Shown here: in pieces, positions 497 through 28,904 of the stretch
Position numbering within the stretch: the first letter of the stretch is position 1
Layout: each line of letters starts with the position of its first letter
From: an uncultured Clostridia bacterium
Lineage (GTDB): Bacteria > Bacillota > Clostridia > Christensenellales > Borkfalkiaceae
Assembly: GCA_947627955.1 (NCBI GenBank)
Contig: CANQXZ010000016.1
Coordinates: 1 to 33,436, forward strand
Length of the DNA stretch: 33,436 nucleotides
Direction of reading: 5' to 3'
Notes under the pieces: generated by a model
What the model saw: only the letters and a program-made list of their open reading frames with translations
Databases searched by the model: none
Told to the model about the DNA's origin: nothing
Translations under genes and position numbers: made by a program

Positions 497-525
497 TTGA
501 CTTTTCCCGCGATATGCTTTATTAT
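497..525 (+). promoter_or_regulatory. Promoter of the membrane-protein operon (leaderless type)
   Basis: -35 TTGACT (497-502), 17-bp spacer, -10 TATTAT (520-525), then six bases and the ATG at 532. Predicted +1 falls on the A of ATG. This rules out the in-frame ATG at 514, which lies inside the promoter spacer. Confidence 0.65.
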
Positions 526-531
526 ATATAT

Positions 532-1260
532 ATGGAAAATACGGAAAAAGTGAAGGGAATGAAGGGCAAGAGGATCTGCTCCGTCCTGGCGGGTATAATA
601 AACATCGTAAAGGCGCTGCTCATGCTTGTGGTCATCGTAGTCGACGTGCTCGGCGGCGGGGCGAATTGCCTCGGCTACGTCGCGGGAGGAGGCGTCACCG
701 GCAACGAGGGCATCGGCGTCATCGGAATGCTGCTCGCGGGTCCCTTTATGATCATTTTCATACTTATAGCGGTCGTAGTGCTCGGCGTGCCCCTCGTCGT
801 GATGCTGTGCGGCGCGGTGACCCTGTTCAGGGCAAACGGCAAAAAGACGCGCTCCACGGTGCCCGTAGTCCTTTCGATCATAGCCGACTCTCTCGTCGCG
901 CTGATATTTGCGGCGAACGCCGTTAAGATGTTTTTCGGAGACGTCACGGACGCAATCACAATGATTGCCACGCTTACGCTCGCCGCGATCTGCATAGTCA
1001 ATATCCCGCTGTGCGCGGTGAGCCTTTCCATGATAAAGGCACAGAACAAGATAATAAGCGACAAAAAGAAAGCCGAACGTGCGGCGCAAGCTGCCGCCGC
1101 GCAAGCCGCCACGGGAGCGCAAAATGCTCCCGCCCCCGCGGCACAGCCCGTAGCGCCCGCGCCCAAACCCAAGCCCGCGCCGCCCGCCGTGCCCGAAGTG
1201 CCGAAAGGTCCCACGCCCGTGGCAAGATATCCCCGTCCCTCGGACGCTGACAAAGATTGA
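532..1260 (+). CDS. Unknown membrane protein with Ala/Pro-rich tail
   Basis: This 242-residue protein is not one I recognise. Four hydrophobic stretches follow a short charged N terminus (roughly residues 17-35, 65-95, 107-130 and 140-165), so it should be a polytopic membrane protein. From about residue 175 it becomes a charged helix and then a low-complexity tail of Ala, Pro and Lys (repeated AP and PKP), probably in the cytoplasm or at the cell surface. The start is chosen at 532 because the promoter ends six bases before it; there is no ribosome-binding site. In-frame GTG 550 and ATG 559 are the alternatives. It is the first of four co-directional membrane-protein genes ending at a shared terminator near 2520, which suggests a joint function that cannot be named. 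Confidence 0.8.
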   Translation: MENTEKVKGMKGKRICSVLAGIINIVKALLMLVVIVVDVLGGGANCLGYVAGGGVTGNEGIGVIGMLLAGPFMIIFILIAVVVLGVPLVVMLCGAVTLFRANGKKTRSTVPVVLSIIADSLVALIFAANAVKMFFGDVTDAITMIATLTLAAICIVNIPLCAVSLSMIKAQNKIISDKKKAERAAQAAAAQAATGAQNAPAPAAQPVAPAPKPKPAPPAVPEVPKGPTPVARYPRPSDADKD

Positions 1261-1279
1261 CTTGGGGAACTGTCACGCC

Positions 1280-1525
1280 ATGTATAAAGTGCTGAGAATA
1301 ATCTTCTGCGTAATATCCGTGCTCGCCGCGGCTTCGGCGATCTTTATCTTCGTGTATTTCCAATTCTGGGGGCTCGCCGCGGTAGGCGTCTGCGTTGCCT
1401 CGGCAATCGGCATGATACTGTGCAAGCGCGCGCAGGAACGGGAGGAACTCAGAAAAAACCCTCCCCCTCCCGAAGGCGACTTCATTACGGGCAGAGTAGT
1501 AAAGGATGAAAAAGAGGATAAATAA
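1280..1525 (+). CDS. Small unknown two-TM membrane protein
   Basis: An 81-residue protein with two hydrophobic helices (about residues 4-26 and 30-48), then a basic and acidic cytoplasmic-looking tail containing a run of prolines. ATG 1280 is preferred over an in-frame TTG at 1262 because GGGGAA at 1264-1269 gives a well-placed ribosome-binding site. The 3' end overlaps the next gene by 20 nt in another frame, which suggests translational coupling. No family recognised. Confidence 0.75.
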   Translation: MYKVLRIIFCVISVLAAASAIFIFVYFQFWGLAAVGVCVASAIGMILCKRAQEREELRKNPPPPEGDFITGRVVKDEKEDK

Positions 1526-1973
1526 GGCGGCTGTCGCCGCCGCGGCGGTGAACTATGCCGCGTTCACCTTTTCGCTGCCGATACTTGCGGTGCACGCCAT
1601 GTTTTTTGTCATTAGCATACCTATCCCCTTTCTGTGGGGAGTCTCGATAATCGTAGGCGCGTTCGCCGCCCTGCTATTTGTCCTCTCGCTGGCGCAAGCC
1701 CTGCTTTCGGCAGGCGTGGCGGCGTTCGCGTGCATGGGCAGAAGGACGCCCGCGCTCGTGGCGGATGGCGTGCTCATAGGCGTTTCGCTGCTGTTCGCGG
1801 GGGCGTACGCCGTCTATTGCGGCTTATACGTCTACTCCGTCGTGACCTCGTTCGAATTCACGGAATCGGGCATGTTCATACTGCTGAGCGGCATTGCCGC
1901 CGTCTGCGCCCTCGCGGGCTCGGCGTGCGCCGTCGCCGCGCTCATAGGGGAATGCAGATCCCCGAAAAAATAG
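1506..1973 (+). CDS. Unknown four-TM membrane protein
   Basis: A 155-residue, very hydrophobic protein with about four membrane helices (residues 10-35, 40-72, 85-112, 122-150) and short basic ends (MKKR at the start, RSPKK at the end). It starts within the preceding gene. No conserved catalytic motif is visible and I do not recognise a family. Size, topology and operon position resemble its neighbours, so the four may be distant relatives, but I cannot see convincing sequence similarity by eye. Confidence 0.8.
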   Translation: MKKRINKAAVAAAAVNYAAFTFSLPILAVHAMFFVISIPIPFLWGVSIIVGAFAALLFVLSLAQALLSAGVAAFACMGRRTPALVADGVLIGVSLLFAGAYAVYCGLYVYSVVTSFEFTESGMFILLSGIAAVCALAGSACAVAALIGECRSPKK

Positions 1974-1980
1974 GAAAAAG

Positions 1981-2001
1981 GCTCTCCTTATACGGGAGAG
2001 C
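1981..2001 (+). repeat. Small hairpin before the fourth gene's ribosome-binding site
   Basis: GCTCTCC (1981-1987) pairs with GGAGAGC (1995-2001) around a 7-nt loop. The stem ends one base before the ribosome-binding sequence GGAGG of the gene at 2012. There is no T-run, so it is unlikely to terminate transcription. It may stabilise the mRNA or tune translation. Confidence 0.4.
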
Positions 2002-2011
2002 GGAGGTAGAT

Positions 2012-2488
2012 ATGAAAGAACAGAGAATAAGGACAGCCGTGACGGTATTGATATGGCTCGCCGTCGCGGCGGGCGCGGTCGCGGCATGGTACTGCTTCGG
2101 CGGATATGCCTTTTTGTACTCAAAAATAACCATGGGCGACGAAACCACTCTCGACGAGGGGTTAAGCACTTTTTTCACACAGCTGTTTCTCGTGTTCGCG
2201 GGGGTAGCCGAAAGCATACTGCTGATAATAAAGTTGGTGTGCGCAATAGGGCTGACCGTTGCCGCCGCGCGCAAAAAGACGGGCGGAACGGGCTTCCTCT
2301 ATGCGGGATTTATACCCTGCCCCGTGGGCGCGCTCGTACACGTGTTCTGCGCCGTCGCAGGCACAGGCGTGCATATCGGCGTGACGGCAGCCTTCGCGGT
2401 CTTCGCCGCACTTGAAATAGCCCTGTTCGTGACGGGGATAATCTCCGCCGTCCTCAGAAAAAAGGCGGCGGCACAGCCCGCCGTTTAA
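2012..2488 (+). CDS. Unknown four-TM membrane protein
   Basis: A 158-residue protein with about four hydrophobic helices (residues 8-33, 58-85, 92-115, 120-148) and a basic C terminus. The start is the ATG with GGAGG at 2002-2006 just upstream; the frame is open further upstream but lacks a comparable start. Two cysteines lie in the third and fourth helices. It is the last gene of the plus-strand membrane cluster and is followed within 15 nt by a strong bidirectional terminator. Function unknown. Confidence 0.8.
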   Translation: MKEQRIRTAVTVLIWLAVAAGAVAAWYCFGGYAFLYSKITMGDETTLDEGLSTFFTQLFLVFAGVAESILLIIKLVCAIGLTVAAARKKTGGTGFLYAGFIPCPVGALVHVFCAVAGTGVHIGVTAAFAVFAALEIALFVTGIISAVLRKKAAAQPAV

Positions 2489-2500
2489 ACGGGCAAAGAT

Positions 2501-2540
2501 AAAGCGGCGCGGTCTCCCTTCGCGGGGACCGCGCCGCTTT
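2501..2540. terminator. Bidirectional intrinsic terminator
   Basis: A 14-bp GC-rich stem (2501-2514 with 2527-2540) is bounded by AAA on one side and TTT on the other. It lies between the stops of two converging genes (2488 plus, 2550 minus) and probably ends transcription from both sides. Confidence 0.8.
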
Positions 2541-2549
2541 TACATGTGG

Positions 2550-3119
2550 TCATTCGCCGACAACGATCTTTGCGCGGGGCTTTGTGAGGAACACGCTCGC
2601 GAGCATGCTCACGGCGGAAATGGCGGCGAATATCCCGCCCACAAGCGAGCCGAACGCAAACGTTATCTGCTTGCGTATCTCGTTTGTAACCTCTTTGCCG
2701 CCGACCGCGGGGTTGAATATCACTATATATCTGGTGACGAAAAAGAGCGTTGCAGCCACCGCAAAACAGCACGCGGCTACGATGGACGGTATCCTTTTGC
2801 CTATGCCGAGCATGTCGAGGACCGTCGCGACGACCCCGACGGGCAACAGCAAATACGCTATCGCCACGGGCGAAACCGTGAACAACCTGACCGAATAAAC
2901 TATGCTCATGTACGCCGGCAGCTGCGTCCCCGCCGCCTCAAGCACGTCCGCCGCGTCGCGCGTGACGGGCGAACCGAACGCTATGTTCAGCCCGGAACAC
3001 GCCGTTCCTCCCGCCCCGAGCGTGATATTAGGCGCAAACAGCATGAAAAACGCCGTTACGCCGAAGAGCAGCGAGGCAACGCACGGGATCTTGTTCAAAA
3101 CCTTGTCTGTTTCGTTCAT
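2550..3119 (-). CDS. Unknown membrane protein, target of the adjacent XRE regulator
   Basis: A 189-residue protein with four hydrophobic regions: one after the N terminus (about 13-35), a long one in the middle (about 75-110), one at about 115-138 and one near the C terminus (about 155-180). The start at 3119 is supported by a GGGGGG ribosome-binding stretch about 8 nt upstream; the frame stays open for another 110 codons but runs through the promoter. It diverges from the small XRE-type gene at 3249, and three operator copies lie over the promoters of both. The likely arrangement is that the regulator controls this membrane protein. It resembles the four plus-strand neighbours in size and hydrophobic pattern. 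Function unknown. Confidence 0.8.
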   Translation of the reverse strand: MNETDKVLNKIPCVASLLFGVTAFFMLFAPNITLGAGGTACSGLNIAFGSPVTRDAADVLEAAGTQLPAYMSIVYSVRLFTVSPVAIAYLLLPVGVVATVLDMLGIGKRIPSIVAACCFAVAATLFFVTRYIVIFNPAVGGKEVTNEIRKQITFAFGSLVGGIFAAISAVSMLASVFLTKPRAKIVVGE

Positions 3120-3170
3120 AATTTTCCCCCCGACGGAATAAATTTCTCCGTCCGACATAATTATATTATA

Positions 3171-3184
3171 GTCATATTTATGAC
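3171..3184. promoter_or_regulatory. Operator copy 1 (14-bp inverted repeat)
   Basis: GTCATATTTATGAC, half-sites GTCAT and ATGAC separated by 4 bp. It lies just downstream of the -10 of the leftward promoter, covering its predicted start. Confidence 0.7.
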
Positions 3185-3191
3185 CATATTC

Positions 3192-3220
3192 AGTATAGTC
3201 ATTTTTATGACAATTGTCAA
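3192..3220 (-). promoter_or_regulatory. Promoter of the membrane protein gene at 2550-3119
   Basis: -35 TTGACA (3220-3215), 17-bp spacer and -10 TATACT (3197-3192) on the minus strand. The predicted leader is about 65 nt and ends in a good ribosome-binding site. Confidence 0.8.
3198..3211. promoter_or_regulatory. Operator copy 2 (14-bp inverted repeat)
   Basis: GTCATTTTTATGAC, with the same half-sites as copy 1. It fills the spacer between -35 and -10 of the leftward promoter, where a bound protein would block RNA polymerase. Confidence 0.75.
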
Positions 3221-3242
3221 GTAAATGACAATAAAATATAAT
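3214..3242 (+). promoter_or_regulatory. Promoter of the XRE regulator (leaderless type)
   Basis: -35 TTGTCA (3214-3219), 17-bp spacer and -10 TATAAT (3237-3242), then six bases and ATG 3249. It shares bases with the divergent promoter's -35 and with operator copy 3. Confidence 0.75.
3216..3229. promoter_or_regulatory. Operator copy 3 (14-bp inverted repeat)
   Basis: GTCAAGTAAATGAC, half-sites GTCA and TGAC with one weaker position. It overlaps the -35 elements of both divergent promoters. A second palindrome, GACAATTGTC (3209-3218), bridges copies 2 and 3. Confidence 0.7.
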
Positions 3243-3248
3243 AAAAAT

Positions 3249-3464
3249 ATGATAAGCTACGAACCGTTCTGGAAGACGGTGAAAAAGCGCGGGGAAACCA
3301 CCTATACGCTGATATACCGCCACGGCATCAGCAGCGCCACAATAGACAGAATGAAAAAGGGCAAGGGGATAAGCACTGCAAAGATCGACGATTTTTGCAG
3401 GATCCTCAATTGCAACGTGCAGGACATTTTGGAATACAGAGAACGGTCCCCCGAACAAAAATGA
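3249..3464 (+). CDS. Small XRE/Cro-type HTH transcriptional regulator
   Basis: A 71-residue single-domain DNA-binding protein. The stretch YTLIYRHGISSATIDRMKKG followed by ISTAKIDDFCRILNCNVQDIL is typical of short Cro/CI-type regulators in Firmicutes: helix 2, turn and recognition helix, then the conserved dimer-side helix with the L-C/N-x-x-xDIL ending. No sensor domain is present. The start at 3249 is chosen because the -10 ends six bases before it; an in-frame ATG at 3225 lies inside the promoter. The three 14-bp operators upstream suggest that it represses itself and the divergent membrane-protein gene. Confidence 0.85.
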   Translation: MISYEPFWKTVKKRGETTYTLIYRHGISSATIDRMKKGKGISTAKIDDFCRILNCNVQDILEYRERSPEQK

Positions 3465-3612
3465 CGGGAGACCGCGCTTTCTTTACACCGTTTTTTCACG
3501 GCGTTTTTTGTAATTTTACCCCTTCCGTCATACCCCTTACACAATCGCTCGGTATAATTTAAGGGCACATTGGGAAATGCCGGAAGGCTTTCATCAAATT
3601 TTCCTCTTTAAA

Positions 3613-3652
3613 GAAAGGCTCCCGCCGCAGGGCGGAAGCCTTTCCGTTTTTT
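3613..3652. terminator. Intrinsic terminator after guaA (bidirectional)
   Basis: Arms 3613-3626 and 3631-3644 pair around GCAG with one mismatch. The plus-strand side is followed by a T-rich run, and the minus-strand side by TTTCTTTAAAG. It sits 15 nt beyond the guaA stop. The rest of the gap 3465-3612 is AT-rich with short hairpins and no convincing gene. Confidence 0.75.
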
Positions 3653-3658
3653 ATGATA

Positions 3659-5191
3659 TCATTCCCATTCGATAGTCGCGGGAGGTTTGGAGGTGATGTC
3701 ATAGACTATCCTGTTGACGTGTTTCACCTCGTTGACTATGCGGTTGGATACCGTTTCGAGCACGTCGTAGGGTATCCTCGCCCAATCGGCGGTCATGGCG
3801 TCGAGAGAGGTCACCGCGCGGATGGCGACGACGTTCTCATAGGTGCGGAAATCGCCCTGCACACCCACCGTCTTGCTGTTGGTTATCACGGTGAAGTACT
3901 GCCATATCTCGCCGTCGAGCCCCGCCTTTGCTATCTCCTCGCGCAGAATGTAGTCGCTGTCGCGCAGGGTCTCGAGCTTTTCGGCGGTCACTTCGCCCAT
4001 TATCCTTATCGCGAGCCCCGGCCCCGGGAACGGCTGGCGCATTACCACCGATTTGGGGAGCCCGAGCTCGAAGCCGACCTTTCTCACCTCGTCCTTGAAC
4101 AGGTCGCGGAGAGGCTCTATTATCTCCTTGAAGTCCACCACCGAGGGCAGTCCGCCCACGTTGTGGTGGCTCTTTATCACTGCCGATTTTCCCTTGCCGC
4201 TCTCGATTACGTCGGGATATATGGTGCCCTGAACGAGAAAATCCACTTTGCCTATCTTCTTGCTCTCCGCCTCGAAGGCGCGTATGAACTCCTCGCCTAT
4301 TATCTTGCGCTTTTTCTCGGGATCGGTCACCCCTTTCAGCTTGGAGAGGAACACCTCCCCCGCGTCCGCTTTTATGAGGTTCATGCCGAGCCCGTCGCGG
4401 AACACCTTCATGACTTCGTCCGCCTCGAACTTCCTTAAAAGACCGTGGTCGACGAAAACGCAGACGAGCTTGTCGCCCACCGCCCTGTGCACGAGGGTGG
4501 CGGCAACGGCGGAATCCACTCCGCCCGACATTGCGCACAGCACCTTTCTGTCGCCTATCTTTTCCTTGAGCTCCTCCACCTTATGCGCGACGAAGTTGGA
4601 CATGGTCCAATCGCCCGTTGCGCCGCAGACGCCGTACAAAAAGTTTTTGAGTATCTGCATGCCGTATTGCGTGTGGTTTACTTCTGGGTGGAACTGCACG
4701 CCGTATATCCCCCTCTTCACGTCGCCGAACGCCGCAAAGGGGCAGTTGTCGCTGTAAGCTATCCTTTCGAACCCTTCGGGGAGCTCGGTTATCCTGTCCG
4801 TGTGGCTCATCCAGCTTACCGCGCGCTGCGGCAAGCCCTCCGTGAGCGGGGATTTGAGATAGGTCACTTCGGCTTTGCCGTATTCCGAAGCCGAGGCGCT
4901 CTCCACCGTGCCTCCGAGGAGGTGCGCTGTGAGCTGGCAGCCGTAGCAGATGCCCAGAACGGGTATGCCGAGGGAGAACACCTCCCCGTCTATGCGGGGG
5001 GAACCCTCCTCGTAAACGCTGTTGGGACCGCCCGTGAAGATTATGCCTATGGGAGCGTATTCCCTTATCTTTTCAACGGACATCTCCGATGGCAACAAAT
5101 CGCAGTATACGCCGAGTTCGCGCACCCTGCGGGCTATCAACTGGTTGTACTGTCCGCCGAAGTCGAGGACGAGAACTTTCTGATGCTGCAT
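3659..5191 (-). CDS. guaA: GMP synthase (glutamine-hydrolysing)
   Basis: A 510-residue cytoplasmic enzyme that converts XMP to GMP using glutamine and ATP, the last step of guanine nucleotide synthesis. The N-terminal class I glutamine amidotransferase domain has the nucleophile Cys82 in GICYGCQ and the His-Glu pair in [10 protein letters not shown] near residue 170. The ATP pyrophosphatase domain begins with the P-loop SGGVDSAV near 225. The C-terminal dimerisation domain ends in the typical [13 protein letters not shown]. Length is normal and all key residues are present. It follows guaB by 21 nt, and AAAGGA upstream of the ATG serves as ribosome-binding site. A terminator follows. Confidence 0.98.
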
Positions 5192-5212
5192 ATAATTTTC
5201 CTTTGAAAGAGT

Positions 5213-7265
<2,053 letters not shown>

Positions 7266-7353: not shown

Positions 7354-7382
7354 TTCATAATATCCGCCGCGCGCAATATATT
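7354..7382 (+). promoter_or_regulatory. Promoter of the lipoprotein gene (leaderless type)
   Basis: -35 TTCATA (7354-7359, weak), 17-bp spacer and -10 TATATT (7377-7382), then six bases and ATG 7389. It is divergent from the gua operon promoter, with 20 bp between the two -35 elements. Confidence 0.5.
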
Positions 7383-7388
7383 TATCGT

Positions 7389-8072
7389 ATGAAAAAACTT
7401 GTTCCCATCTTCCTCGCGGCGTTTTTCTGCGCCGCGGCGGCGGGCTGTTCCGCCAAGCCCGACTACATGGACTGCATCTCCGAAAAGCGGAGCGATATCT
7501 TCCTCTATTCCGACGACAGCCTCACATTGCAGATAAACTGCGTCTGCCGCGAGCAGCCCTTCAACGCCGACGGCATACGCGGGGAGATGTGCGAGCTCAC
7601 CGAGATCTTCGCAAAATTTGCCAAAACGCCCTCCTCCGCGGAGATAGAGCTCTGCGGGCATTCGGGCGAGATGAATTATTCCGCCGTCAAGGGCGAATTC
7701 TCGCTCGTCTATTCCTCCCCCGCGCTGACGGGCGAGGGCGTGGACGTGAAGATAAGCGCAGACGGGCAGGAGCGCGAGGTGCGCGCCCTCAGCGTGAAGG
7801 ACGCGGGCGTTATAAGCTGCGAGAGCGCGGTGCGGTGCGCCGCCGAGCACGACAGGGAGCTGTTTTCCTCCCTGACCGCGCGGAAGGCTTTCAAGGGCGA
7901 GATATTCGTGCGACTCTTGTACGACGAGGGGTGTTACTACTACGTCGGCGTGTGCGACAGGGAGAAAAATATAACGGCTATGCTCCTCGACGGCAATCTC
8001 GGAAAAGTGATAGCCACAAAAAAGCTGAAAGCCGAAACGGCTTTCAGCTTTGGAGAAATTCGGTTATTATAG
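7389..8072 (+). CDS. Unknown lipoprotein
   Basis: A 227-residue secreted lipoprotein: basic start MKK, hydrophobic core and lipobox AAAGC, which puts the lipidated Cys at about residue 21. The mature part is acidic and mixed alpha/beta with several Cys residues. It reads like the small uncharacterised lipoproteins common in Clostridia, and no catalytic motif is visible. There is no ribosome-binding site, and the ATG lies six bases after a -10-like element. The last 29 nt overlap the 3' end of hemW on the other strand, and this region encodes the terminator hairpin of the hemW operon. Confidence 0.85.
   Translation: MKKLVPIFLAAFFCAAAAGCSAKPDYMDCISEKRSDIFLYSDDSLTLQINCVCREQPFNADGIRGEMCELTEIFAKFAKTPSSAEIELCGHSGEMNYSAVKGEFSLVYSSPALTGEGVDVKISADGQEREVRALSVKDAGVISCESAVRCAAEHDRELFSSLTARKAFKGEIFVRLLYDEGCYYYVGVCDREKNITAMLLDGNLGKVIATKKLKAETAFSFGEIRLL
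8021..8051 (-). terminator. Terminator of the lepA-MGMT-hemW operon, inside coding sequence
   Basis: A 13-bp perfect stem (8021-8033 with 8039-8051) and a 5-nt loop. On the minus strand it is followed by a run of seven T. It spans the hemW stop and lies within the last codons of the convergent lipoprotein gene. On the plus strand there is no T-run. Confidence 0.8.
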
Positions 8073-9465: not shown

Positions 9466-11271
9466 TCAGTCCTTATTCGTCTTCAATATCTGCATGAACA
9501 CTTCGCTGGGCACTTCCACGTTGCCTATCTGCCTCATGCGCTTTTTGCCCTCTTTCTGCTTTTCGAGGAGCTTCTTCTTCCTCGTTATGTCCCCGCCGTA
9601 GCACTTGGCGAGCACGTCTTTGCGCATCGCCTTTACCGTTTCGCGGGCGATTATCTTGCCGCCCACAGCCGCCTGCACGGGCACCTCGAAGAGCTGCCTC
9701 GGAATGGCTTCCTTCAAGTTTTCGCAGAGCGTTCTCCCCCTCGGATAGGCGGAATCCTCGTGCACTATCATGGAGAGGGCGTCGCACACCTCGCCGTTCA
9801 AGAGTATGTCGAGCTTGACGAGCTTGCTCCTTTCATATCCCTTCAGCTCGTAGTCGAAACTCGCGTAGCCGCGCGTTCTCGACTTCACGGCGTCGAAAAA
9901 GTCGAAGATTATCTCGTTGAGGGGCAGGTCGTATTCGAGGCGCACGCGGCTCTTGTCGAGATAGGTCATCTGCAGGAACACTCCCCTCTTCTCCCTGCAC
10001 AGGTCCATTATCTGCCCCAGATAGTCGGGCGGGGAATATATGTCCGCCTTGACGATGGGCTCTTCCATGTGCTCTATCTCCGAGGCGGGGGGAAGGTGCG
10101 AGGGGTTGTCCACGAAGAGCTCCTCCCCGTCCGTCTTTACGACCTTATAGCTCACCGACGGCGCGGTGGTTATTATGTCCAGCCCGAACTCCCTTTCTAT
10201 GCGCTCCTGTATTATCTCCATGTGCAGCAGCCCGAGAAAGCCGCAGCGGAAGCCGAAGCCGAGCGCCTGCGAGGTGTCGGGCTCGAATAAAAGGGAAGCG
10301 TCGTTGAGCTGGAGTTTCAAAAGCGCCTCTTTGAGATCGCCGAACTTGCTGCCGTCGAGGGGATATATGCCGCAGAACACCACGCTCTGCACCTTTTTGT
10401 AGCCGGGCAGGGGCTCGGCGGCGGGCTCCGCTGCGCCCGTGACCGTGTCGCCCACGGCTACGTCCGTTATGGACTTTATGGAGGCGGCGATATAGCCGAC
10501 TTCGCCCGCCGAGAGCCCGTCTTTGGGCACGGGCGAGGGATTAAACGCCCCCGTTTCGGTGACCTCGTATATCTTTTCCGAGCGGAAGGTCTTTACCCTG
10601 TCGCCCGCCTTTACCCTGCCGTCCTTTATCCTAACGAAGAGTATAACGCCCTTGTAGTTGTCGTAATAGCTGTCGAATATCAGCGCCCTCAGAGGGGCGT
10701 TTTCGTCGCCAGCGGGCGCGGGGAAGTACTTTATCACGTCCTCGAGCACCTCGCGGATATTGGTGCCCTCTTTTGCGGAGACGAGGGGCGCGTAAGAGGC
10801 GTCGAGCCCTATTACCTCCTCTATCTCCTTTTTCGCCTCGTCGGGGCGGGCGGAAGCCAAATCTATCTTGTTTATCACGGGCAGTATTTCGAGGTTGTTT
10901 TCGAGCGCGAGATAGACGTTGGCGAGGGTCTGCGCCTCCACGCCCTGCGTCGCGTCCACGATGAGCACCGCGCCCTCGCATGCGGCGAGGGAACGGGATA
11001 CCTCGTATGTGAAGTCCACGTGCCCCGGCGTATCGATGAGGTTGAGCTCGTACTCCTCCCCGTCGTCAGCTTTATAGAACATTCTCACGGGCGCGAGCTT
11101 TATGGTTATGCCCCTCTCGCGCTCTATGTCCATGGAGTCGAGAAGCTGGGCTTCCATGTCCCTCTCCGAGACCTGCCCCGTGCACTCCATCAGCCTGTCG
11201 GCGAGAGTGCTCTTGCCGTGGTCTATGTGCGCTATTATGCAAAAATTGCGGATATGCTGCTTGTCTGCCAT
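9466..11271 (-). CDS. lepA: Elongation factor 4 (back-translocating GTPase)
   Basis: A 601-residue ribosome-associated GTPase. G-domain motifs are [10 protein letters not shown] (P-loop), DTPGHVDF (G3) and NKIDLASA (G4), followed by domain II, EF-G-like domains III and V, and the LepA-specific C-terminal domain ending in [17 protein letters not shown]. Full length and intact. No ribosome-binding site precedes the ATG: TATAAT ends six bases before it, so the mRNA should be leaderless, which is unusual for a housekeeping translation factor. It heads an operon with the MGMT-like gene and hemW. Confidence 0.97.
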
Positions 11272-11277
11272 AATTCA

Positions 11278-11306
11278 ATTATATAAAACGCGCCGTGTTT
11301 TTGCAA
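11278..11306 (-). promoter_or_regulatory. lepA promoter (leaderless type)
   Basis: -35 TTGCAA (11306-11301), 17-bp spacer and perfect -10 TATAAT (11283-11278), then TGAATT and the lepA ATG. Predicted +1 coincides with the start codon. Confidence 0.7.
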
Positions 11307-19821: not shown

Positions 19822-20385
19822 TCAGTGACTCATCAGATCTTTCACGAAATTCACTATCCCGCTCGCGGGGTTGTGCTCGTAGATGGGGCGGACTATGCAG
19901 TTCGCGTTTGCGGCGAGGGAGTTATAAAAGCTCTCCGCAGTGTTGCCGCCGACCCACATGATAATCTGGAAGACAAGCAGGATAATGACGAACGCCGCCG
20001 CGACAAAGAGCAGCGCGCCGCCTATCCTGTTGACCACGTTTATCACCGGCACGTCCGAATCGGTTATGCGGTCTATGAGTTTGACCGTAAGGAAAAGGAG
20101 CAGCATGAAGATAAGCGCGAGCACGATGTAGTAGATTATCAGTTCGAGGTGTATCTTCGCAAGGAAGCCGATATGCGCCCACTTGGAAGCAAGCTCTTCG
20201 AGCATGGTGCTGACAAAGGGGATCTTGAGGATAACTCCCCCGAAAAAGTAGCAGAGAATTACCGCAACTATCACCCTCGTGACCTTGCCCGCGAAAAAGC
20301 TGAGCCCCTTGCCGAAGCCGACTATCACGCCCAACAGCGCCATAACGAGCAAGACTCCCAAAAATATCCAATCGCCGTAGCCCAT
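19822..20385 (-). CDS. cvpA: CvpA family membrane protein
   Basis: A 187-residue membrane protein of the CvpA (colicin V production) family, with four hydrophobic helices (about residues 5-22, 26-50, 75-100, 115-140) and the family's Gly-rich first helix (GVIVGFGKGLSFFAGKVTR). It ends in a short soluble tail. The start at 20385 follows AAAGGAGG, which is better than an ATG six codons upstream. CvpA proteins are linked to envelope homeostasis and export; the exact role is unclear. It has its own strong promoter overlapping the end of degV. Confidence 0.88.
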   Translation of the reverse strand: MGYGDWIFLGVLLVMALLGVIVGFGKGLSFFAGKVTRVIVAVILCYFFGGVILKIPFVSTMLEELASKWAHIGFLAKIHLELIIYYIVLALIFMLLLFLTVKLIDRITDSDVPVINVVNRIGGALLFVAAAFVIILLVFQIIMWVGGNTAESFYNSLAANANCIVRPIYEHNPASGIVNFVKDLMSH

Positions 20386-21823: not shown

Positions 21824-22438
21824 TTATCTTTTGCGGGAAAAGCGCGCCTTTTTGCTGTTTTTGAGCTTGCGGGGCGCGGGCAAACGCTTCCTTTTGAAAG
21901 AAAGGCACACCCTTCCGCCGAACGCCCTGTCCCTCCCGCGGGGAAGGGAATAGAGTCTGAGCCTTTCCGCCGCCGAATACAGCCCGAACGGCGCCTCTTC
22001 GCCGCCGAAGAGATATTCGTCGTTGAAGATCCTGCCGCATGCGTGGCAACCGTTGGCGGGCAGACTGTAACCGTACGGCGCGAAATAGCGCTTTTTTATC
22101 CCGAACTCCTCCCTGAGGGTGCGGGCGACGTCCTCGGGGAGCCCGTCCAGCCCGAAGAGAAGGCTTATCTCGCCCTTGCCGTACACGGCGGGCAGAAGAT
22201 CCTCGCGGTATCTGCCGAGCGCGACGGCGACAAGGCGCACGTCCGCGCCGCAATAGGGGCACTTTTCCCCGACTTCGGCGATGTACGTTTCCGAAGAGAA
22301 TATCCTGCCCTTTATCCACTCCGCAAACTTCGGGTAGTCGGCGTAGCGGGCGACTTTCCACTTCCCGCCCGCGCACGGTTTCGCGCCGAGGGCTCTAAGG
22401 CGAGGCGCGTCCTCTTCGGGCGCAGAAAACTCTATCAT
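21824..22438 (-). CDS. Unknown protein with DUF5710-like start and two zinc-type Cys pairs
   Basis: A 204-residue soluble protein. The first 45 residues (APEEDAPRLRALGAKPCAGGKWKV) resemble the DUF5710 pattern of small domains with an ALGA-x-W core. A Cys pair follows at about residue 60 (CPYCGADV) and another near 130 (CHACGRIF); together they could bind one or two zinc ions. The C terminus is rich in Arg and Lys (KRKRLPAPRKLKNSKKARFSRKR) and may bind nucleic acid. The start at 22438 has GAAGGAGGG upstream; an ATG five codons earlier lacks this. Nucleic-acid binding is inference. Confidence 0.75.
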   Translation of the reverse strand: MIEFSAPEEDAPRLRALGAKPCAGGKWKVARYADYPKFAEWIKGRIFSSETYIAEVGEKCPYCGADVRLVAVALGRYREDLLPAVYGKGEISLLFGLDGLPEDVARTLREEFGIKKRYFAPYGYSLPANGCHACGRIFNDEYLFGGEEAPFGLYSAAERLRLYSLPRGRDRAFGGRVCLSFKRKRLPAPRKLKNSKKARFSRKR

Positions 22439-22456
22439 GCTTCCCTCCTTCATACA

Positions 22457-22485
22457 AGTATAGCACGCTTTGAGGCGGATTTCAA
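22457..22485 (-). promoter_or_regulatory. Promoter of the zinc-motif gene
   Basis: -35 TTGAAA (22485-22480), 17-bp spacer and -10 TATACT (22462-22457). The leader is short and includes a strong ribosome-binding site. Confidence 0.65.
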
Positions 22486-22567
22486 GGGCGGAGCGGAATT
22501 TTGCCGCAGAAAGGCAAATTATGACTGAAAAGGGAGAAAATCAAGGGCGGACAAAGGGAATTTCCTG

Positions 22568-22596
22568 TTGATTTTGCGGCGGGCATTTGTTATAAT
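22568..22596 (+). promoter_or_regulatory. Promoter of the LRR lipoprotein gene
   Basis: -35 TTGATT (22568-22573), 17-bp spacer and perfect -10 TATAAT (22591-22596). The leader is about 100 nt and ends in AAGAGG before the ATG at 22705. Confidence 0.7.
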
Positions 22597-22704
22597 GGAT
22601 TCGGGAATACGGCTCGCGGATCTGTCCGCGCGACCGCAGCGCGGCGTTTGGGAGAATACTGCCCCGCTGCACCGTATAAAAAATCCCCGAAAAAGAGGTA
22701 TCTC

Positions 22705-25700
22705 ATGAAGAAACTTTTGATCGCCGTTCTCATCGCCCTGACGTGCGCCTGCGGCGCAGCCGCGCTCTCTTCCTGCGCGCGCAAGGACGAACACACCCAC
22801 TCTTTCGGCGAATGGACCTCCGTGACCGAGGCGACATGCACCGAAAAGGGAACGGAAAAACGCACCTGCGAATGCGGATACTCTGAGGAGCGCGAGACAG
22901 ACGAGCTCGGGCACAGCTGGCAGTATACGCACGCCCAGAACTCCGACGAGCATTCGCACACCAAGTCGTGCGCGCGCTGCGACATTGCGCCCACAGCGGA
23001 AAGCTGCACCTTCACCGACAACGTTATCACGCCCGACTGCATGCACGGGGGATATATCGAGCACGTCTGCACGGCATGCGAATACGGTTACAGGGACAAC
23101 GAAACGGGTCCCACCGATCACGTTTACGGCGCATGGAAGCACGTGGACGACACTGCCACCCACATGCGCACCTGCCTCAACGCAAACTGCGGGCATTCCG
23201 AGACCGAGAGCTGCACTTACGATACGGAAGATGTTCCCGCGACCTGCACTTCGGCGGGCTACACCAAAAATACCTGCCGTGACTGCGAATACTACTTCGA
23301 ATCCGCGCAGGTCGACAAGCTCCCCCACGCCTACGGCGGCTGGACGTACGCCCACACGGACAGCGAGGGCAGACATATCCATCAGCGCGTGTGCGGATAC
23401 GGCTGCGGCGCGACCGAGACCGATTACTGCACCGAAACAAACCCCGTAGTCACCGAACCCACTTGCAGGAGCGGCGGCTGGACGACATATACCTGCGAGG
23501 TCTGCAACGTAGCGCACACTGCCGATCCCAAGCCCATAGGGGAACATAGTTGGGGCACGTGGACGGTGGGCACAGGTCAGCCCCTGCACCACGAGAGGGT
23601 ATGCTCGGTATGCGATCTCCACAGCTACGGTCTGTGCTCTGTCACCACCACGGTGACGGACGCCGACTGCGAAAACGACGGCGTTACCGTCACGGAGTGC
23701 TCTGTGTGCGACAGGCACACGGAAGTCACCAGCCCCAAGCTCGGGCACGACTATCCCGACGAATGGACGCACAACGAGGGCGTGGACACCCACTCCCGCA
23801 CCTGCCGCCGCCCCGAATGCGGAAATATAGAGACCGACGACTGCGAGATGGAGAGAAAGGTCAATCCCTACACCTGCACCACGGACGAAACGATAACGGA
23901 GAGCTGCCTCTATTGCTCGAATTCGAGGACGGAGAGCGGCGAGCCCGCGCCCGGGCACAGCTGGGGACAGTGGACGCACGACAGCGGCAAAGAGACGCAC
24001 ACCCACACCTGTTACGTGTGCCGCGCCACGCAGACCGAGGAATGTAACTACAACATAACGGAGATACCCGCGGACTGCACCAACGTGGCGAAAATCAGAA
24101 AGGAGTGCGACGCCTGCCAAAACACCGTGACGGAGGATAAGCCCGACAGCAAGGCTTACGGGCACCTCATAGTTCAGGTGGAAGAGCCCACCGCCACCCA
24201 CCATCACGTGCGCTGCGACCGCCCCGGCTGCGATTTCGAGCACGACGGCGCGCACGAATACTACGATACCAACTACTGCCTGTACTGCAACCGCGACGGG
24301 CTCGAATACAAGCTCGACGCCTCGGGCACGTACTATATCGTCCTACACGACAGCAACATAAAGGGCGCAAGGCGGATAATAATTCCCGAAACGTACAACG
24401 GCTATCCCGTCAGGGAGATAGCCTCGGGGATAACCACTACGAACGGCTCGTACAACGGCTTCTACAACAACAAGGACATAACCGAGCTCGTGCTCCCCGA
24501 AACGCTCGAGACGATAGGCGATTACGCCTTCGAGAGCTGCACGAACCTCAAAGCGGTGACCGTGACGCACGAGGACGACGGGGACGAATATCACCCCTCG
24601 CTCAGGGAGATAGGGGATCACGCGTTCGGCAACTGCTCGAGCCTGCGCTCGGCAGCCAACCTCCCCGCCACCCTCAAACTGATAGGCGACTATGCGTTCA
24701 GCGGCTGCTCCCAGCTCGCGGAAATAACCATTCCCGACGGCGTTGAGACGATAGGCGACCACGCCTTTTATAAGACCGCCTACCGCGCCGACAGAACGCA
24801 CTGGACGGAGGGCGCGCTGTACATCGGCAGGCACTTAATAGCGTTTGACGGCGCCACGGCGGACTTCGAGATAAGGCAGGGCACCCTTTCGGTGAGCGCA
24901 GAAGCCTTTAAGGACAACAAGACCCTCAAAAATCTGACGATGTACGCGGGCATAAGGGAGATAAACAAGGACGCATTTTTGGGCTGCGACAACCTCGACA
25001 GCGTAATTTTCCACGGCAAATTCGCCGATTGGCTGAAGATAAACTTCGCCTGCGACCACTCCAACCCCGCCCACCTCGCGCCCAACCTCAGCATAACGGA
25101 AGCCGAATCGGACATAGTCATACCCGAGGGCATTACGGCTATACCCAACGGGACGTTCCGCGACACGGCGATAACCCGCGTGGATATCCCCGAAACGGTG
25201 ACGTATATCGGCGCCGAAGCCTTTAAAAACTGCGCGGGGCTCGCCGAGATAGTCCTTCACGGCGGGATAACCGAAATAGGCGCGGGCGCGTTCGACGGCA
25301 CGGCTTACTACGCGGAGGACGGCAATTGGGAAAGCGGAGCGCTCTATATTTACACAGCCGACCGCGCAATATCATACCTTGTCGCCTCGAAGCAAGAGGC
25401 GGCGGGCGAGACCGTGAACATACGCACCGACTGCAAGGTGATAGCCGACCGCGCCTTCTACGGCAACGCCGTATTGACGACCGTGACGGCGGGCGACGGA
25501 CTGTACACGATAGGCGAGAGCGCCTTCGAAAACTGCTCCGCCCTCGCAAACGTGACTATCGGCACGGGGCTCAGGATCGTATTCGAAAAGGCGTTCTACG
25601 GCTGCAACAGCCTCGCAAATGTCACGTTCGCACAGCACGCCGCATGGATGGCTACAAACGGCGGCGGCGCGGCGCGGGTCAAGACGACGGGTCCCTCCGT

Positions 25701-25770
25701 CAACCTCGCGGGAGAGATAAACAGATATTCCTACGGCAAGTGGAACTTCCTGCGCGCGATAGAGGGCTGA
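22705..25770 (+). CDS. Large surface lipoprotein: Cys/His repeats plus BspA-type LRRs
   Basis: A 1021-residue secreted lipoprotein. The signal peptide ends in lipobox LSSC (lipidated Cys at about residue 24). Residues about 30-540 hold roughly nine degenerate repeats of 50-60 residues, each with His/Trp (HSWGxWTH-like), a THxHTC-type stretch and CxxCG pairs, suggestive of metal-binding or disulfide-linked stalk units. From about 560 to 1010 come BspA/LRR_5 repeats, recognisable by the recurring IGDYAFxxCxxLxxITIPDGVETIG pattern. Such LRRs often mediate adhesion to host or cell surfaces. No C-terminal wall anchor is seen, so attachment is through the lipid. It is monocistronic, with its own promoter and terminator. 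Ligand unknown. Confidence 0.88.
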   Translation: MKKLLIAVLIALTCACGAAALSSCARKDEHTHSFGEWTSVTEATCTEKGTEKRTCECGYSEERETDELGHSWQYTHAQNSDEHSHTKSCARCDIAPTAESCTFTDNVITPDCMHGGYIEHVCTACEYGYRDNETGPTDHVYGAWKHVDDTATHMRTCLNANCGHSETESCTYDTEDVPATCTSAGYTKNTCRDCEYYFESAQVDKLPHAYGGWTYAHTDSEGRHIHQRVCGYGCGATETDYCTETNPVVTEPTCRSGGWTTYTCEVCNVAHTADPKPIGEHSWGTWTVGTGQPLHHERVCSVCDLHSYGLCSVTTTVTDADCENDGVTVTECSVCDRHTEVTSPKLGHDYPDEWTHNEGVDTHSRTCRRPECGNIETDDCEMERKVNPYTCTTDETITESCLYCSNSRTESGEPAPGHSWGQWTHDSGKETHTHTCYVCRATQTEECNYNITEIPADCTNVAKIRKECDACQNTVTEDKPDSKAYGHLIVQVEEPTATHHHVRCDRPGCDFEHDGAHEYYDTNYCLYCNRDGLEYKLDASGTYYIVLHDSNIKGARRIIIPETYNGYPVREIASGITTTNGSYNGFYNNKDITELVLPETLETIGDYAFESCTNLKAVTVTHEDDGDEYHPSLREIGDHAFGNCSSLRSAANLPATLKLIGDYAFSGCSQLAEITIPDGVETIGDHAFYKTAYRADRTHWTEGALYIGRHLIAFDGATADFEIRQGTLSVSAEAFKDNKTLKNLTMYAGIREINKDAFLGCDNLDSVIFHGKFADWLKINFACDHSNPAHLAPNLSITEAESDIVIPEGITAIPNGTFRDTAITRVDIPETVTYIGAEAFKNCAGLAEIVLHGGITEIGAGAFDGTAYYAEDGNWESGALYIYTADRAISYLVASKQEAAGETVNIRTDCKVIADRAFYGNAVLTTVTAGDGLYTIGESAFENCSALANVTIGTGLRIVFEKAFYGCNSLANVTFAQHAAWMATNGGGAARVKTTGPSVNLAGEINRYSYGKWNFLRAIEG

Positions 25771-25788
25771 CATAACACAGATCAAGGC

Positions 25789-25815
25789 GAAAGCACCCCG
25801 AACGGGGTGCTTTCT
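25789..25815 (+). terminator. Terminator after the LRR lipoprotein gene
   Basis: GAAAGCACCCC and GGGGTGCTTTC form an 11-bp perfect stem with a 4-nt loop. It begins 18 nt after the stop. The following sequence is not strongly T-rich, so some transcription may continue into comF. Confidence 0.65.
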
Positions 25816-25834
25816 CAAAAGTCGAAGCTATTTC

Positions 25835-26548
25835 ATGGAGAGGCACGTGGAAAAATATGCAAAAATCAAGGGGACGTTCTTCCCCGCATACTTCCGCTGC
25901 ATACTTTGCGGCTTGGAGATTTTCGGGGGTGAACTGTGCCCGCGCTGTCTTGCGGAAGTGGAGTTCAACGACGGGCACACCTGCCCTGTCTGCGGCAGAA
26001 AGACGGCAAAGAGCGAGATATGCATGGACTGCAAGGACCGCCCTCCGCTGTTTACAAAGGCGGCTTCGCCCATAGTATACGGCGACGGCGGCACGAAGCT
26101 CATATCCCGCTTCAAGCTCGGCAACCCGTGGCTCGCGGAATATCTGGCGGGCAAGATGGCGCCTCTCGCCGCAAAACTGCCCGCCGCCGACCTCATTGTC
26201 TGCGTGCCCGCCGCGCGCGGCGCGCTGAAAAAGAGGGGCTATGACCAATCGGCTCTGCTCGCGGAGAGGATATCCGCCGAGTGCGGCGTTCCCTTTTCAA
26301 AAGACGCCGTAATAAAGACAAAAAAGACCCGCCCGCAAAAGGGACTTTCAAAGCGGGAACGGCTGAAAAACCTGCAGGGGAGCTTCAAGGCGGACAGGGA
26401 ACTCGTAAAGGGCAAAAAGGTGCTTTTGATAGACGACGTCATGACTACGGGCGCCACTCTCGACAGCGTTACGGAGGCATTGAAAAAGGCGGGTGCGGGC
26501 GAAGTTTACGCGCTCACAGCCGCCTCCGTGCGCTACAAAGCGCCCTGA
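25835..26548 (+). CDS. comF: ComF family phosphoribosyltransferase-like protein
   Basis: A 237-residue ComF-type protein. The N-terminal zinc ribbon has CILCG and CPRC, then CPVCG and CMDC (about residues 22-66). The phosphoribosyltransferase-like domain ends with the PRPP-type motif VLLIDDVMTTGATL near residue 200; VPAARGALKKRGYDQSALLA near 130 is also family-typical. In naturally competent Firmicutes ComF takes part in DNA uptake. ComFA and other com genes are absent from the window. The start at 25835 lacks a good ribosome-binding site and GTG 25847 is an alternative. Convergent with the MATE gene, 5 nt apart. Confidence 0.9.
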   Translation: MERHVEKYAKIKGTFFPAYFRCILCGLEIFGGELCPRCLAEVEFNDGHTCPVCGRKTAKSEICMDCKDRPPLFTKAASPIVYGDGGTKLISRFKLGNPWLAEYLAGKMAPLAAKLPAADLIVCVPAARGALKKRGYDQSALLAERISAECGVPFSKDAVIKTKKTRPQKGLSKRERLKNLQGSFKADRELVKGKKVLLIDDVMTTGATLDSVTEALKKAGAGEVYALTAASVRYKAP

Positions 26549-26553
26549 AAAGT

Positions 26554-27900
26554 TCACATATATCCGTATTTTTTTCTGAAAGCGAGCACGCAAGCCACCG
26601 TTATGGCGAGGGCGGCGAGCTCGGAAAAGCACACCGAAGCCCACACTCCGTCCAGCCCCCAAACGAGGGGAAAGAGGAACACCGCTCCCACCCTTAAAAG
26701 GAGGGAACGCGAAAAGGAGATCACCGCCGAGATGAGCCCGTTGTTGAGCGCCGTAAAGAGCGCCGAGCCGAATATCCCGAACCCGCTGACAAGATAGGAC
26801 AGGGAATAGATATAGTGCCCGCGGAGGGTTATCTCATATATCTTTCCGCCGAAGCCGAATATCCCTACGAGGGGCACGGCGCACGCCTCGGCGAACACGG
26901 TCATGGCAAGCCCCGCCGCGGCGGTTATGACCACTCCCTTTTTAAACAGGTTTTTCAGCTCGGCAGAGTTGCGCGCACCGAAGTTGTAGCCTATCACGGG
27001 CGTAGCTCCCACGGCAAAGCCCATGAACACCGAAAAGAATATCATGGAGAGATAGCCTATCGCGCCGTACGCCGCTACGCCCGCCTCCCCCACGAACCTC
27101 GTTATCTGCTCGTTGAAGAGCAGCATCACCACGGACGTGGAGATATTGGAGAAGAACTCCGAAGAGCCGTTCGTCGCCGATTTTACGAGGGCGCGGAAAT
27201 AGAACCGCGTGCCCGTAAAGCGCAACAGCCCTCCGTTTTTAAAGGAAAAATAGAACACGGGCACGAGCCCGCCGAACGCCTGACTTGCGAAAGTCGCCCA
27301 CGCGGCGCCCGTAAGTCCCGCCTTAAAGCCCGCGACGAGCATGGCGTCGAGAGCCATGTTCATCAGCCCCGCCCCCGCCGTAACGGCAAGCCCGAGGCGG
27401 GGCTTTTCCGCCGTCACGAAAAAGCTCTGGAACACGTTCTGCAATATAAAAAAGGGCTGACCGGCAAGCAATATCCGCCCGTACTCCACACAGTAGGAGT
27501 ACAGCTCCCCCTCGCTCTCGTGGCAAAGCGCGCGCGCTATCGACGGCACGGCGAACTGTCCCGCTATCATAACGCACGTTCCCGCCGCCGCGGTGAAGTA
27601 CACGACGAGCGAAAAGTACTCGTTCGCCCTCTTCCGATCGCCCTCCCCGAGCGTCTTGGAAACGAGCGCGCTGCCGCCCGTCCCGAACATGAACCCTATC
27701 GAGCCGAGGACTATGATCAGCGGGAATATGTAGTTTGTGGCGGCGAGCGCCGTCTCCCCGACGAAGTTGGATATAAACAGCCCGTCCACGATGGAATACA
27801 CGCTTATGAACACCGTCATCACCACTGACGGCGCGACGAACCGCAGGAGCCGTTTATATGTGAAATGGTCCGAAAGCCTTATCTTGTCTGCCTTTTCCAT
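26554..27900 (-). CDS. MATE family multidrug/cation exporter
   Basis: A 448-residue integral membrane protein with about 12 helices in two homologous halves, typical of MATE transporters; the N-terminal FVAPSVVMTVFISVYSIVDGLFIS segment and GFMFGTGGSALVSKTLGEG near residue 70 point to the MepA-like branch. It would export drugs or metabolites in exchange for Na+ or H+; the substrate is unknown. No ribosome-binding site precedes the ATG; instead the leader holds a hairpin followed by six T ending about 10 nt upstream. The stop lies 5 nt from the end of comF and no terminator is visible between them. Confidence 0.93.
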   Translation of the reverse strand: MEKADKIRLSDHFTYKRLLRFVAPSVVMTVFISVYSIVDGLFISNFVGETALAATNYIFPLIIVLGSIGFMFGTGGSALVSKTLGEGDRKRANEYFSLVVYFTAAAGTCVMIAGQFAVPSIARALCHESEGELYSYCVEYGRILLAGQPFFILQNVFQSFFVTAEKPRLGLAVTAGAGLMNMALDAMLVAGFKAGLTGAAWATFASQAFGGLVPVFYFSFKNGGLLRFTGTRFYFRALVKSATNGSSEFFSNISTSVVMLLFNEQITRFVGEAGVAAYGAIGYLSMIFFSVFMGFAVGATPVIGYNFGARNSAELKNLFKKGVVITAAAGLAMTVFAEACAVPLVGIFGFGGKIYEITLRGHYIYSLSYLVSGFGIFGSALFTALNNGLISAVISFSRSLLLRVGAVFLFPLVWGLDGVWASVCFSELAALAITVACVLAFRKKYGYM

Positions 27901-27909
27901 AAATACCCG

Positions 27910-27956
27910 AAAAAACGCGCCTTAAAAAGAGAGCGCGCCGCCCGCACCTTGGCGGG
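27910..27956 (-). promoter_or_regulatory. MATE leader with terminator-like hairpin
   Basis: Two stems in the 60-nt leader: CCCGC/GCGGG (27941-27956) and, closer to the gene, CGCGC/GCGCG (27937-27933 with 27920-27916) followed by TTTTTT (27915-27910). The second resembles an attenuator, although its stem is only 5 bp. Confidence 0.4.
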
Positions 27957-27967
27957 ACGGTATCCCG

Positions 27968-27996
27968 AGTATAGCCGCCGCGGAAGAATATGTCAA
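27968..27996 (-). promoter_or_regulatory. MATE exporter promoter
   Basis: Perfect -35 TTGACA (27996-27991), 17-bp spacer and -10 TATACT (27973-27968), divergent from the DUF3737 promoter with 18 bp between the -35 elements. Confidence 0.75.
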
Positions 27997-28014
27997 GCAA
28001 TTCGCCCGAATGGG

Positions 28015-28043
28015 TTGACCCGAATGCCGCAATGTTGTATAAT
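28015..28043 (+). promoter_or_regulatory. DUF3737 gene promoter (leaderless type)
   Basis: -35 TTGACC (28015-28020), 17-bp spacer and perfect -10 TATAAT (28038-28043), then TTTATC and ATG 28050. It is the clearest example of the leaderless pattern in the window. Confidence 0.8.
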
Positions 28044-28049
28044 TTTATC

Positions 28050-28904
28050 ATGGACTCACGCAAAACGATAGAAAATATAGTTACCGACAGGGAACGCGCC
28101 CTCTACAACACCGTCTGCGCCGACATAACGGGCTGCACTTTCGCGGGCGAAGCCGACGGCGAGTCGGCTTTGAAGGAGTGCCGCGACATAAGGGTGCGCG
28201 GCTGCGCCTTTTCGCTGCGCTATCCGCTGTGGCACGTGAAGGACTTCACGGCGGAGGACTGCGTAATGGACGTAAACGCGCGCGCCGCGGTGTGGTATTC
28301 CGAGAGGGGCAGATTCTCCCGCTGTAAGCTCGGCGGGATAAAGGTGTTCCGCGAATGCGCTGACATCGCCGCGGAGGATTGCGAGATATCCTCCTTCGAA
28401 TCGGGCTGGCATTGCCGCGGGATAACGCTCACAAACTGCCGCGTGCTCTCCGAATACCTGCTTTTAGGCAGCTCGGACATACGCATAGCCGGCTGCGCGC
28501 TCGACGGCAAGTACCCCCTGCAATACGTAAATAACGCCGTTATAGAGAACTCCGCGATAAACTTTAAAGACGCGCTCTGGCACGCGAAGGACGTCACGGT
28601 GAAAAACTGCGAGCTGAAGGGCGAATATCTCGGCTGGTATTCCGAAAACCTCACCCTCGAAAACTGCCTCATAGAGGGCACCCAGCCCCTCTGCTACTGC
28701 AAGGGTTTGAAACTTATAAACTGCCGCATGAAGGACTGCGACCTCGCCTTCGAGCTCTCCGAGGTGGAGGCGGATATTGCGGGAGAGATACTCTCCGTGC
28801 GTTCCCCCCTCTCGGGGACAATCGTCTGCGACGGCGTCGGCGAGATCGTCCGCGACGTGACGGGCTATGAATGCAACGGAAAAATAGTCGTCCGCGGAAA
28901 GTGA
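28050..28904 (+). CDS. DUF3737 family beta-helix protein
   Basis: A 284-residue protein with the short, regular repeats of a right-handed beta helix (INCxMKDC, ENCxIEG, KNCELKG). Start ERALYNTVCADITGCTFAGEADGESALKE and FSLRYPLWHVKDF fit DUF3737, which is common in gut Firmicutes and has no established function. It is cytoplasmic by lack of signal or membrane segments. The frame is open to 27990, but that would start upstream of the promoter, so ATG 28050 is chosen. Confidence 0.88.
   Translation: MDSRKTIENIVTDRERALYNTVCADITGCTFAGEADGESALKECRDIRVRGCAFSLRYPLWHVKDFTAEDCVMDVNARAAVWYSERGRFSRCKLGGIKVFRECADIAAEDCEISSFESGWHCRGITLTNCRVLSEYLLLGSSDIRIAGCALDGKYPLQYVNNAVIENSAINFKDALWHAKDVTVKNCELKGEYLGWYSENLTLENCLIEGTQPLCYCKGLKLINCRMKDCDLAFELSEVEADIAGEILSVRSPLSGTIVCDGVGEIVRDVTGYECNGKIVVRGK

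Follow-up and report, generated by a model that had tools for sequence, protein, structure and literature searches.

Promoters six bases upstream of the start codon predict leaderless genes that concentrate in one clade of gut Clostridia

The window analysed here is a 33,436-nucleotide stretch of DNA from an uncultured Clostridia bacterium (Christensenellales, Borkfalkiaceae; contig CANQXZ010000016.1), in which five genes begin with an ATG placed exactly six bases behind the -10 box of a promoter and are predicted to be expressed from leaderless mRNAs. We call the number of bases between the -10 box and the start codon the gap. The first promoter (497..531, plus strand), which was read directly and also recovered by script, comprises a -35 box TTGACT (497-502), a 17-nt spacer, a -10 box TATTAT (520-525) and the gap ATATAT (526-531). 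It precedes a predicted leaderless gene (532..1260, plus strand) for a membrane-like protein of 242 amino acids that has no Pfam or NCBIfam match. The second (3214..3248, plus strand; -35 TTGTCA at 3214-3219, 17-base spacer, -10 TATAAT at 3237-3242, gap AAAAAT) stands before the predicted leaderless gene of a Cro/C1-type regulator of 71 amino acids (3249..3464, plus strand; HTH_26). The third (7354..7388, plus strand) has a weak -35 box, TTCATA (7354-7359), followed by a 17-base spacer, the -10 box TATATT (7377-7382) and the gap TATCGT; the predicted leaderless gene behind it (7389..8072, plus strand) encodes 227 amino acids with an N-terminus that appears lipoprotein-like by eye and no match in Pfam or NCBIfam. 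On the minus strand, the promoter of lepA (11272..11306; -35 TTGCAA at 11306-11301, 17-base spacer, -10 TATAAT at 11283-11278, gap TGAATT) leads into the predicted leaderless gene for elongation factor 4 (9466..11271, minus strand; TIGR01393, 989 bits). The fifth promoter (28015..28049, plus strand; -35 TTGACC at 28015-28020, 17-base spacer, -10 TATAAT at 28038-28043, gap TTTATC) precedes a predicted leaderless gene for a DUF3737 protein (28050..28904, plus strand).

Direct reading thus found all five layouts where a preliminary description of the window had placed them. The same description had stated that these genes lack a Shine-Dalgarno (SD) sequence, and GGAG, GAGG and AGGA are indeed absent from the 20 bases before each ATG. 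The genes named there as keeping a ribosome-binding site (at 2012, at 20385 and 22438 on the minus strand, and folE) do carry an SD-like word. The usual SD-led layout has the SD sequence 5-12 nt ahead of the start codon and a leader some 20-40 nt long; it is found neither at the five window genes nor in the wider set of gap-6 genes described below. Further in-frame ATGs exist at 514, 3225 and 28032, upstream of the starts at 532, 3249 and 28050, and fall within the promoters. Our own gene caller likewise chose a start inside the promoter for three of the five window genes. The gene at 3158 on the minus strand (TATAAT ATAATT ATG) was considered as a sixth leaderless gene and rejected: its -35 box is weak, and it was left out of the 26 sites counted below because a better promoter, TTGACA-17-TATACT (11/12), sits further upstream.

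The prediction set beforehand was a sharp genome-wide peak at a gap of six bases. The sample comprised the window, which is contig 16, and 40 further stretches, amounting to 820 kb of the 1.65-Mb draft genome, in which 670 genes were called by a codon-usage script of our own that is blind to promoters. Sites had to reach at least 3.5 of 6.5 points for the -35 box and at least 5 of 6 for the -10 box, and all in-frame ATGs near a called start were allowed. Gap 6 has 26 in-frame ATGs behind such promoters, gap 5 has two (three in a count that admits more ATGs) and gap 7 has five, over a background of about 1.7 per gap, and the predicted peak is therefore present. At gap 6, ATGs in the two other frames number 2 and 0. 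A count of exact TATAAT boxes before called starts places 16 of 645 genes at gap 6, with 0 to 3 at every other gap from 2 to 16. The in-frame peak falls within the range of about 6-7 bases between the end of the -10 box and the start codon by which -10-adjacent bacterial genes are recognised. The excess over background amounts to about 24 sites in the sample and, scaled to the whole genome, to about 50; the 26 sites form part of 194 predicted promoter-ATG pairs with gaps of 0-44. While the window holds five gap-6 sites where the rest of the sample would lead one to expect about 0.9 (Poisson P = 0.002), such richness is natural for a window chosen for that very feature, and the remaining 21 of the 26 sites lie beyond it.

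The composition of the gap is consistent with transcription starting on the start codon itself. The preliminary description had held that the spacing, and not a motif, is conserved. This stands for positions -6 to -2, which are mixed, so that a shared gap motif beyond -1 can be ruled out; it does not stand for position -1, which is T or C in all 26 sites (22 T, 4 C). We pooled the sites of six genomes, including the window's own and G161, which contributes none. In this pool base -1 is a pyrimidine at 55 of 55 gap-6 sites, compared with 883 of the 1,411 ATG starts in these genomes (P = 2e-11) and 35 of 41 sites at neighbouring gaps (P = 0.005). Bacterial transcription usually starts on a purine that follows a pyrimidine, and the invariant pyrimidine at -1 therefore suggests that the A of the ATG is +1. 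The best spacer, with 16-18 bases allowed, measures 17 in 22 of 27 cases (the 26 sites and the gene at 3158). An SD-like word precedes only 1 of the 55 gap-6 genes, as opposed to 734 of 1,369 other genes in the five genomes with sites, which bears out the earlier suggestion that two modes of initiation coexist in one genome. This deficit is not fully independent evidence, as the -10 box itself occupies part of the space an SD sequence would take. Gap-6 genes more often have a divergent upstream neighbour (23 of 53) than other genes do (259 of 1,307), in line with their having promoters of their own. In 10 of the 55 pooled cases our caller had picked a start other than the gap-6 ATG. We also looked at the anti-SD tail of the rRNA, a weak test: GGATCACCTCC was not found in any of 180 loci, and GGATCACCTCCTTT was seen in 6 of 41 genomes, our own not among them. 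Because rRNA is often missing from draft metagenome genomes, the test shows no more than an intact tail wherever one was seen.

The gap-6 genes of the window's genome are of mixed function. We scanned 27 proteins (those of the 26 sites and of the gene at 3158) against NCBIfam, Pfam or both. The curated NCBIfam cut-off is exceeded by lepA, nth, ruvX, tsaE, rsmG, rdgB/HAM1 and trmL; addB-like, pcrA-like and mntP-like proteins fall under it. ComEC and BrkB/YihY-like membrane proteins, AraC- and Cro/C1-type regulators, a xylose-isomerase-like barrel, DUF3737 and DUF4250 pass the Pfam cut-off, while no match at E 0.001 was obtained for 7 of the 27. Among the gap-6 genes are several housekeeping genes of DNA repair and RNA modification. 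A published survey describes leaderless genes as comparatively common among those for information storage and processing (PMC3160421).

To follow the spacing across whole genomes, we counted the pattern TTGA-(18-20)-TATAAT-gap-ATG and expressed gap 6 as a share of gaps 2-12, for which equal gaps would give 1/11 (9.1%). Per-genome counts are complete, and one promoter may be counted twice if two ATGs follow it. An initial pattern without the -35 element (34 in the own genome versus 12 in a reversed-pattern control; 41 genomes) was noisier and was replaced by the TTGA version. The window's genome has gap 6 in 15 of 45 cases, and the 38 genomes of its genus, own included, in 347 of 1,348 (26%; pooled P = 4e-71). 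Two sets from the same order give 122 of 627 (24 genomes) and 45 of 173 (7 genomes). In 187 genomes from other orders of the class the share is 825 of 8,363 (9.9%), a 1.09-fold excess (P = 0.008). At gene level the profiles of relatives mostly agree with this picture: the counts at gaps 6/7/8 are 12/2/1 in G059, 4/0/1 in G047, 5/5/2 in G043 and 8/4/5 in G314, and 200 kb each of two controls outside the order, G131 of the same class and a Paenibacillus (G054), contain no gap-6 site. In the five genomes that have such sites, these account for 2 to 6.5% of the called genes (own genome 26/670; extremes 8/342 in G314 and 12/185 in G059).

Of 80 lepA loci, 50 were chosen and 49 counted (L100 was left out). 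Among these 49 named genomes, seven pass P<0.001, namely those of L021, L023, L025, L026, L027, L030 and L043. A LepA tree unites all seven with the window's genome, L022 (5/29) and L024 (5/16) in a single clade of ten rows with a support of 98 (SH-aLRT, Shimodaira-Hasegawa-like approximate likelihood ratio test); this is a quick tree of one gene, with 81 rows, 50 of them counted. Adding up the per-genome table, the nine named genomes of the clade have gap 6 in 129 of 355 cases (36%), whereas the other 40 named Bacillota have it in 115 of 1,254 (9.2%). One member, L025, is a Candidatus Ornithoclostridium, placed in Christensenellales by the NCBI, and the tree suggests the same order for the window. 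As sampled, the gap-6 excess concentrates in one clade of gut Clostridia. Two observations were made outside the order. In the draw from the class, G221 is the sole genome outside the order with P<0.001 (gap 6 in 12 of 46). On contig C1 of G131, 10 of 46 cases lie at gap 6 and include six near-identical copies of a promoter and its ATG, which probably stem from a repeat or mobile element that carries a gap-6 start.

Orthologues of two window genes reveal how the spacing behaves within the genus. For each gene we took the best 30 same-genus matches, own copy included (drawn from 61 genomes with a match for lepA and from 49 of 61 for DUF3737). An adjacent promoter with an exact gap of 6 precedes lepA in 7 of 30 loci, with seven different gap sequences, the last base being T or C in each; single loci have gaps of 7, 9 and 10. 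In 12 loci TATATAAT lies further back and a leader is expected; in seven the promoter is not clear and one locus is cut off (these last classes were assigned by eye). Upstream of lepA in L121-L150, one genus alternates between an adjacent gap-6 promoter and the same kind of promoter followed by a leader, and many of the leadered loci carry CGGA/AGGA-like words by eye. DUF3737 has gap 6 in 9 of 30 loci, eight with ATG and one (L168) with GTG; one locus has gap 7, L163 is doubtful, and the remainder have longer leaders or no clear promoter. Leadered and leaderless orthologues of both genes begin at the same residue or within a few codons. The expectation that relatives would keep the six-base spacing is borne out for some loci of each gene, in which the spacing is retained while the gap sequence varies.

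Taken together, these sequence tests make it very probable that the gap-6 genes are leaderless. With a housekeeping (sigma-70/sigma-A type) promoter so near to the gene, RNA polymerase would start seven bases past the -10 box, namely at the A that opens the start codon. The resulting mRNA would begin with 5'-AUG and carry no SD sequence, and its translation would presumably be initiated by a 70S ribosome, or by a 30S subunit with initiation factor 2 (IF2). This is the established route for leaderless mRNAs, which are initiated in either of these ways and are resistant to kasugamycin. Since roughly half of the remaining called genes in these genomes have an SD-like word, and since a single genus contains lepA both with and without a leader, leaders were probably gained and lost gene by gene. 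We consider it somewhat favoured that in one clade of gut Clostridia leaderless expression rose independently to become a second mode across the genome, with single genes such as lepA gaining and losing leaders within the genus.

Several observations weigh against these conclusions. T precedes ATG at 293 of 578 starts in general, which weakens the -1 signature relative to neighbouring gaps. Only 15 of the 38 genus genomes pass P<0.001 on their own, so that the case rests on the pool. The excess is uneven within the order (0/13 in G027, 1/36 in G036, 2/31 in G035), and 160 kb of G161, of the same order, contain no gap-6 site at all. Moreover, a clear gap 6 is missing in 23 of the 30 lepA loci and 21 of the 30 DUF3737 loci of the genus.

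A further point of this kind carries the most serious alternative, namely that the main mRNA is leadered and starts at a second, upstream promoter, the adjacent promoter being secondary. There is a precedent in C. phytofermentans, where transcription start sites (TSSs) at start codons, 4% of intergenic TSSs, are reported to lie generally in genes that also have a TSS further upstream and a typical ribosome-binding site (PMC5171806). In our data, 8 of the 55 gap-6 genes have a further promoter-like site 14-90 nt upstream, and leadered transcripts are also possible for some genes. At the threshold used, however, the other 47 have no such site, and in 54 of the 55 there is no SD-like word to serve a longer mRNA; we regard this alternative as improbable.

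Slightly less probable still is that the leaders are very short (1-4 nt), with polymerase starting one or two bases earlier. The lepA orthologues with gaps of 7, 9 and 10 would fit such leaders, as would the broader peaks of two genomes, which also speak against an exact start on the ATG: gap 7 equals gap 6 in G043 (5 each), and in G314 four sites fall at gap 7 and five at gap 8. Nevertheless, the peak in the window's own genome is only one base wide, and a start on the A of the ATG matches the pyrimidine at -1 with a purine at +1.

Alternatively, the ATG at gap 6 could be a mere transcription start, reflecting the preference for an A at +1, with translation beginning at a later in-frame codon that has its own ribosome-binding site. 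The gene at 3158 offers an example, with a second in-frame ATG 39 nt downstream, after a GGGGGG stretch. Such a preference predicts equal numbers of out-of-frame ATGs, yet 26 are in frame against 2 and 0. Those orthologues of lepA and DUF3737 that have a leader begin at the same residue or a few codons from it, and L168 retains the gap with GTG, all of which makes this explanation very unlikely. Lastly, chance juxtaposition of TATAAT and ATG in A+T-rich intergenic DNA, picked by eye, could account for a window richer than the rest of the sample, but it is refuted by the genome-wide peak, with 21 extra sites beyond the window over a background of about 1.7 per gap and P = 4e-71 in the 38 genus genomes, and we give it practically no credence.

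If the genes are leaderless, leaderless expression in Clostridia, so far a matter of few genes, would become a regular feature within one large gut clade, which would then hold a natural record of leader gain and loss. The genes concerned form a testable list (lepA, nth, ruvX, rdgB, rsmG, trmL, tsaE, addB-like, pcrA-like and others), and lepA permits the leaderless and leadered states of one gene to be compared in close relatives. There is also a practical consequence for annotation, in that promoter-blind gene calling would give wrong N-termini for three of the five window genes.

Some further features of the window deserve mention. The spacer shared by the divergent genes at 3158 (minus strand) and 3249 (plus strand), at 3156-3251, contains two 26-nt near-repeats (85% alike) with GTCAT-N4-ATGAC palindromes, and a third inverted repeat covers the -35 box of the Cro/C1-type regulator. 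From their sequence, these repeats are likely an autoregulatory operator array. A large lipoprotein-like open reading frame of 1,021 amino acids (22705-25770), preceded by an SD-like GAGG, consists by eye of many Cys/His-rich repeated units and then leucine-rich-like repeats. At the contig end, an 80-nt direct repeat (33172-33251 and 33357-33436, 99% identical) may be the reason why the assembly broke there. No tRNA genes were found in the window.

The overall architecture is reminiscent of the leaderless genes of Deinococcus-Thermus, in which a -10 motif is described about 6-7 bp before the open reading frame. Both share a -10 hexamer near the start, the lack of an SD sequence there and SD-led genes in the same genome. 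However, nearly one third of D. radiodurans genes are reported to have the TANNNT box, compared with 2-6.5% here, and our sites combine a near-consensus TATAAT with a clear -35 box (PMC12340547). Actinobacteria are similar in that the transcription start is taken to be the start codon and two modes of initiation are found per genome; they differ in the proportion of genes (about 19% on average), in a weaker TAnnnT box and in their high G+C content (PMC3160421). In the same survey, TA-led genes with TAtAAT about 12 bp upstream are listed for 56 of 209 Firmicutes genomes, at an average of 4.2% of genes, which is close to the per-gene level found here. That survey locates these genes mainly in Lactobacillales and Mycoplasma, and its main text contains no word beginning with Clostridi (PMC3160421).

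Within Clostridia, mapped TSSs of three solventogenic species reportedly place about 2-3% of transcripts as leaderless, and 15 such genes are reported for C. difficile (PMC9045289, PMC7438776). Comparison of these mapped figures with our 26 of 194 is rough, since the latter are predicted pairs; the common trait is the presence of a few leaderless transcripts (PMC9045289, PMC5171806, PMC7438776). According to an article whose main text has no word beginning with Clostridi or Firmicutes, GeneMarkS-2 predicts that 21.6% of the bacterial species among 4,769 use leaderless transcription (PMC9581028). In the open-access literature searched, we found no published account of a concentration of leaderless genes in this clade of gut Clostridia. 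The architecture is of a known leaderless kind, well known elsewhere and reported for few genes in Clostridia, and what is new is its concentration in one clade.

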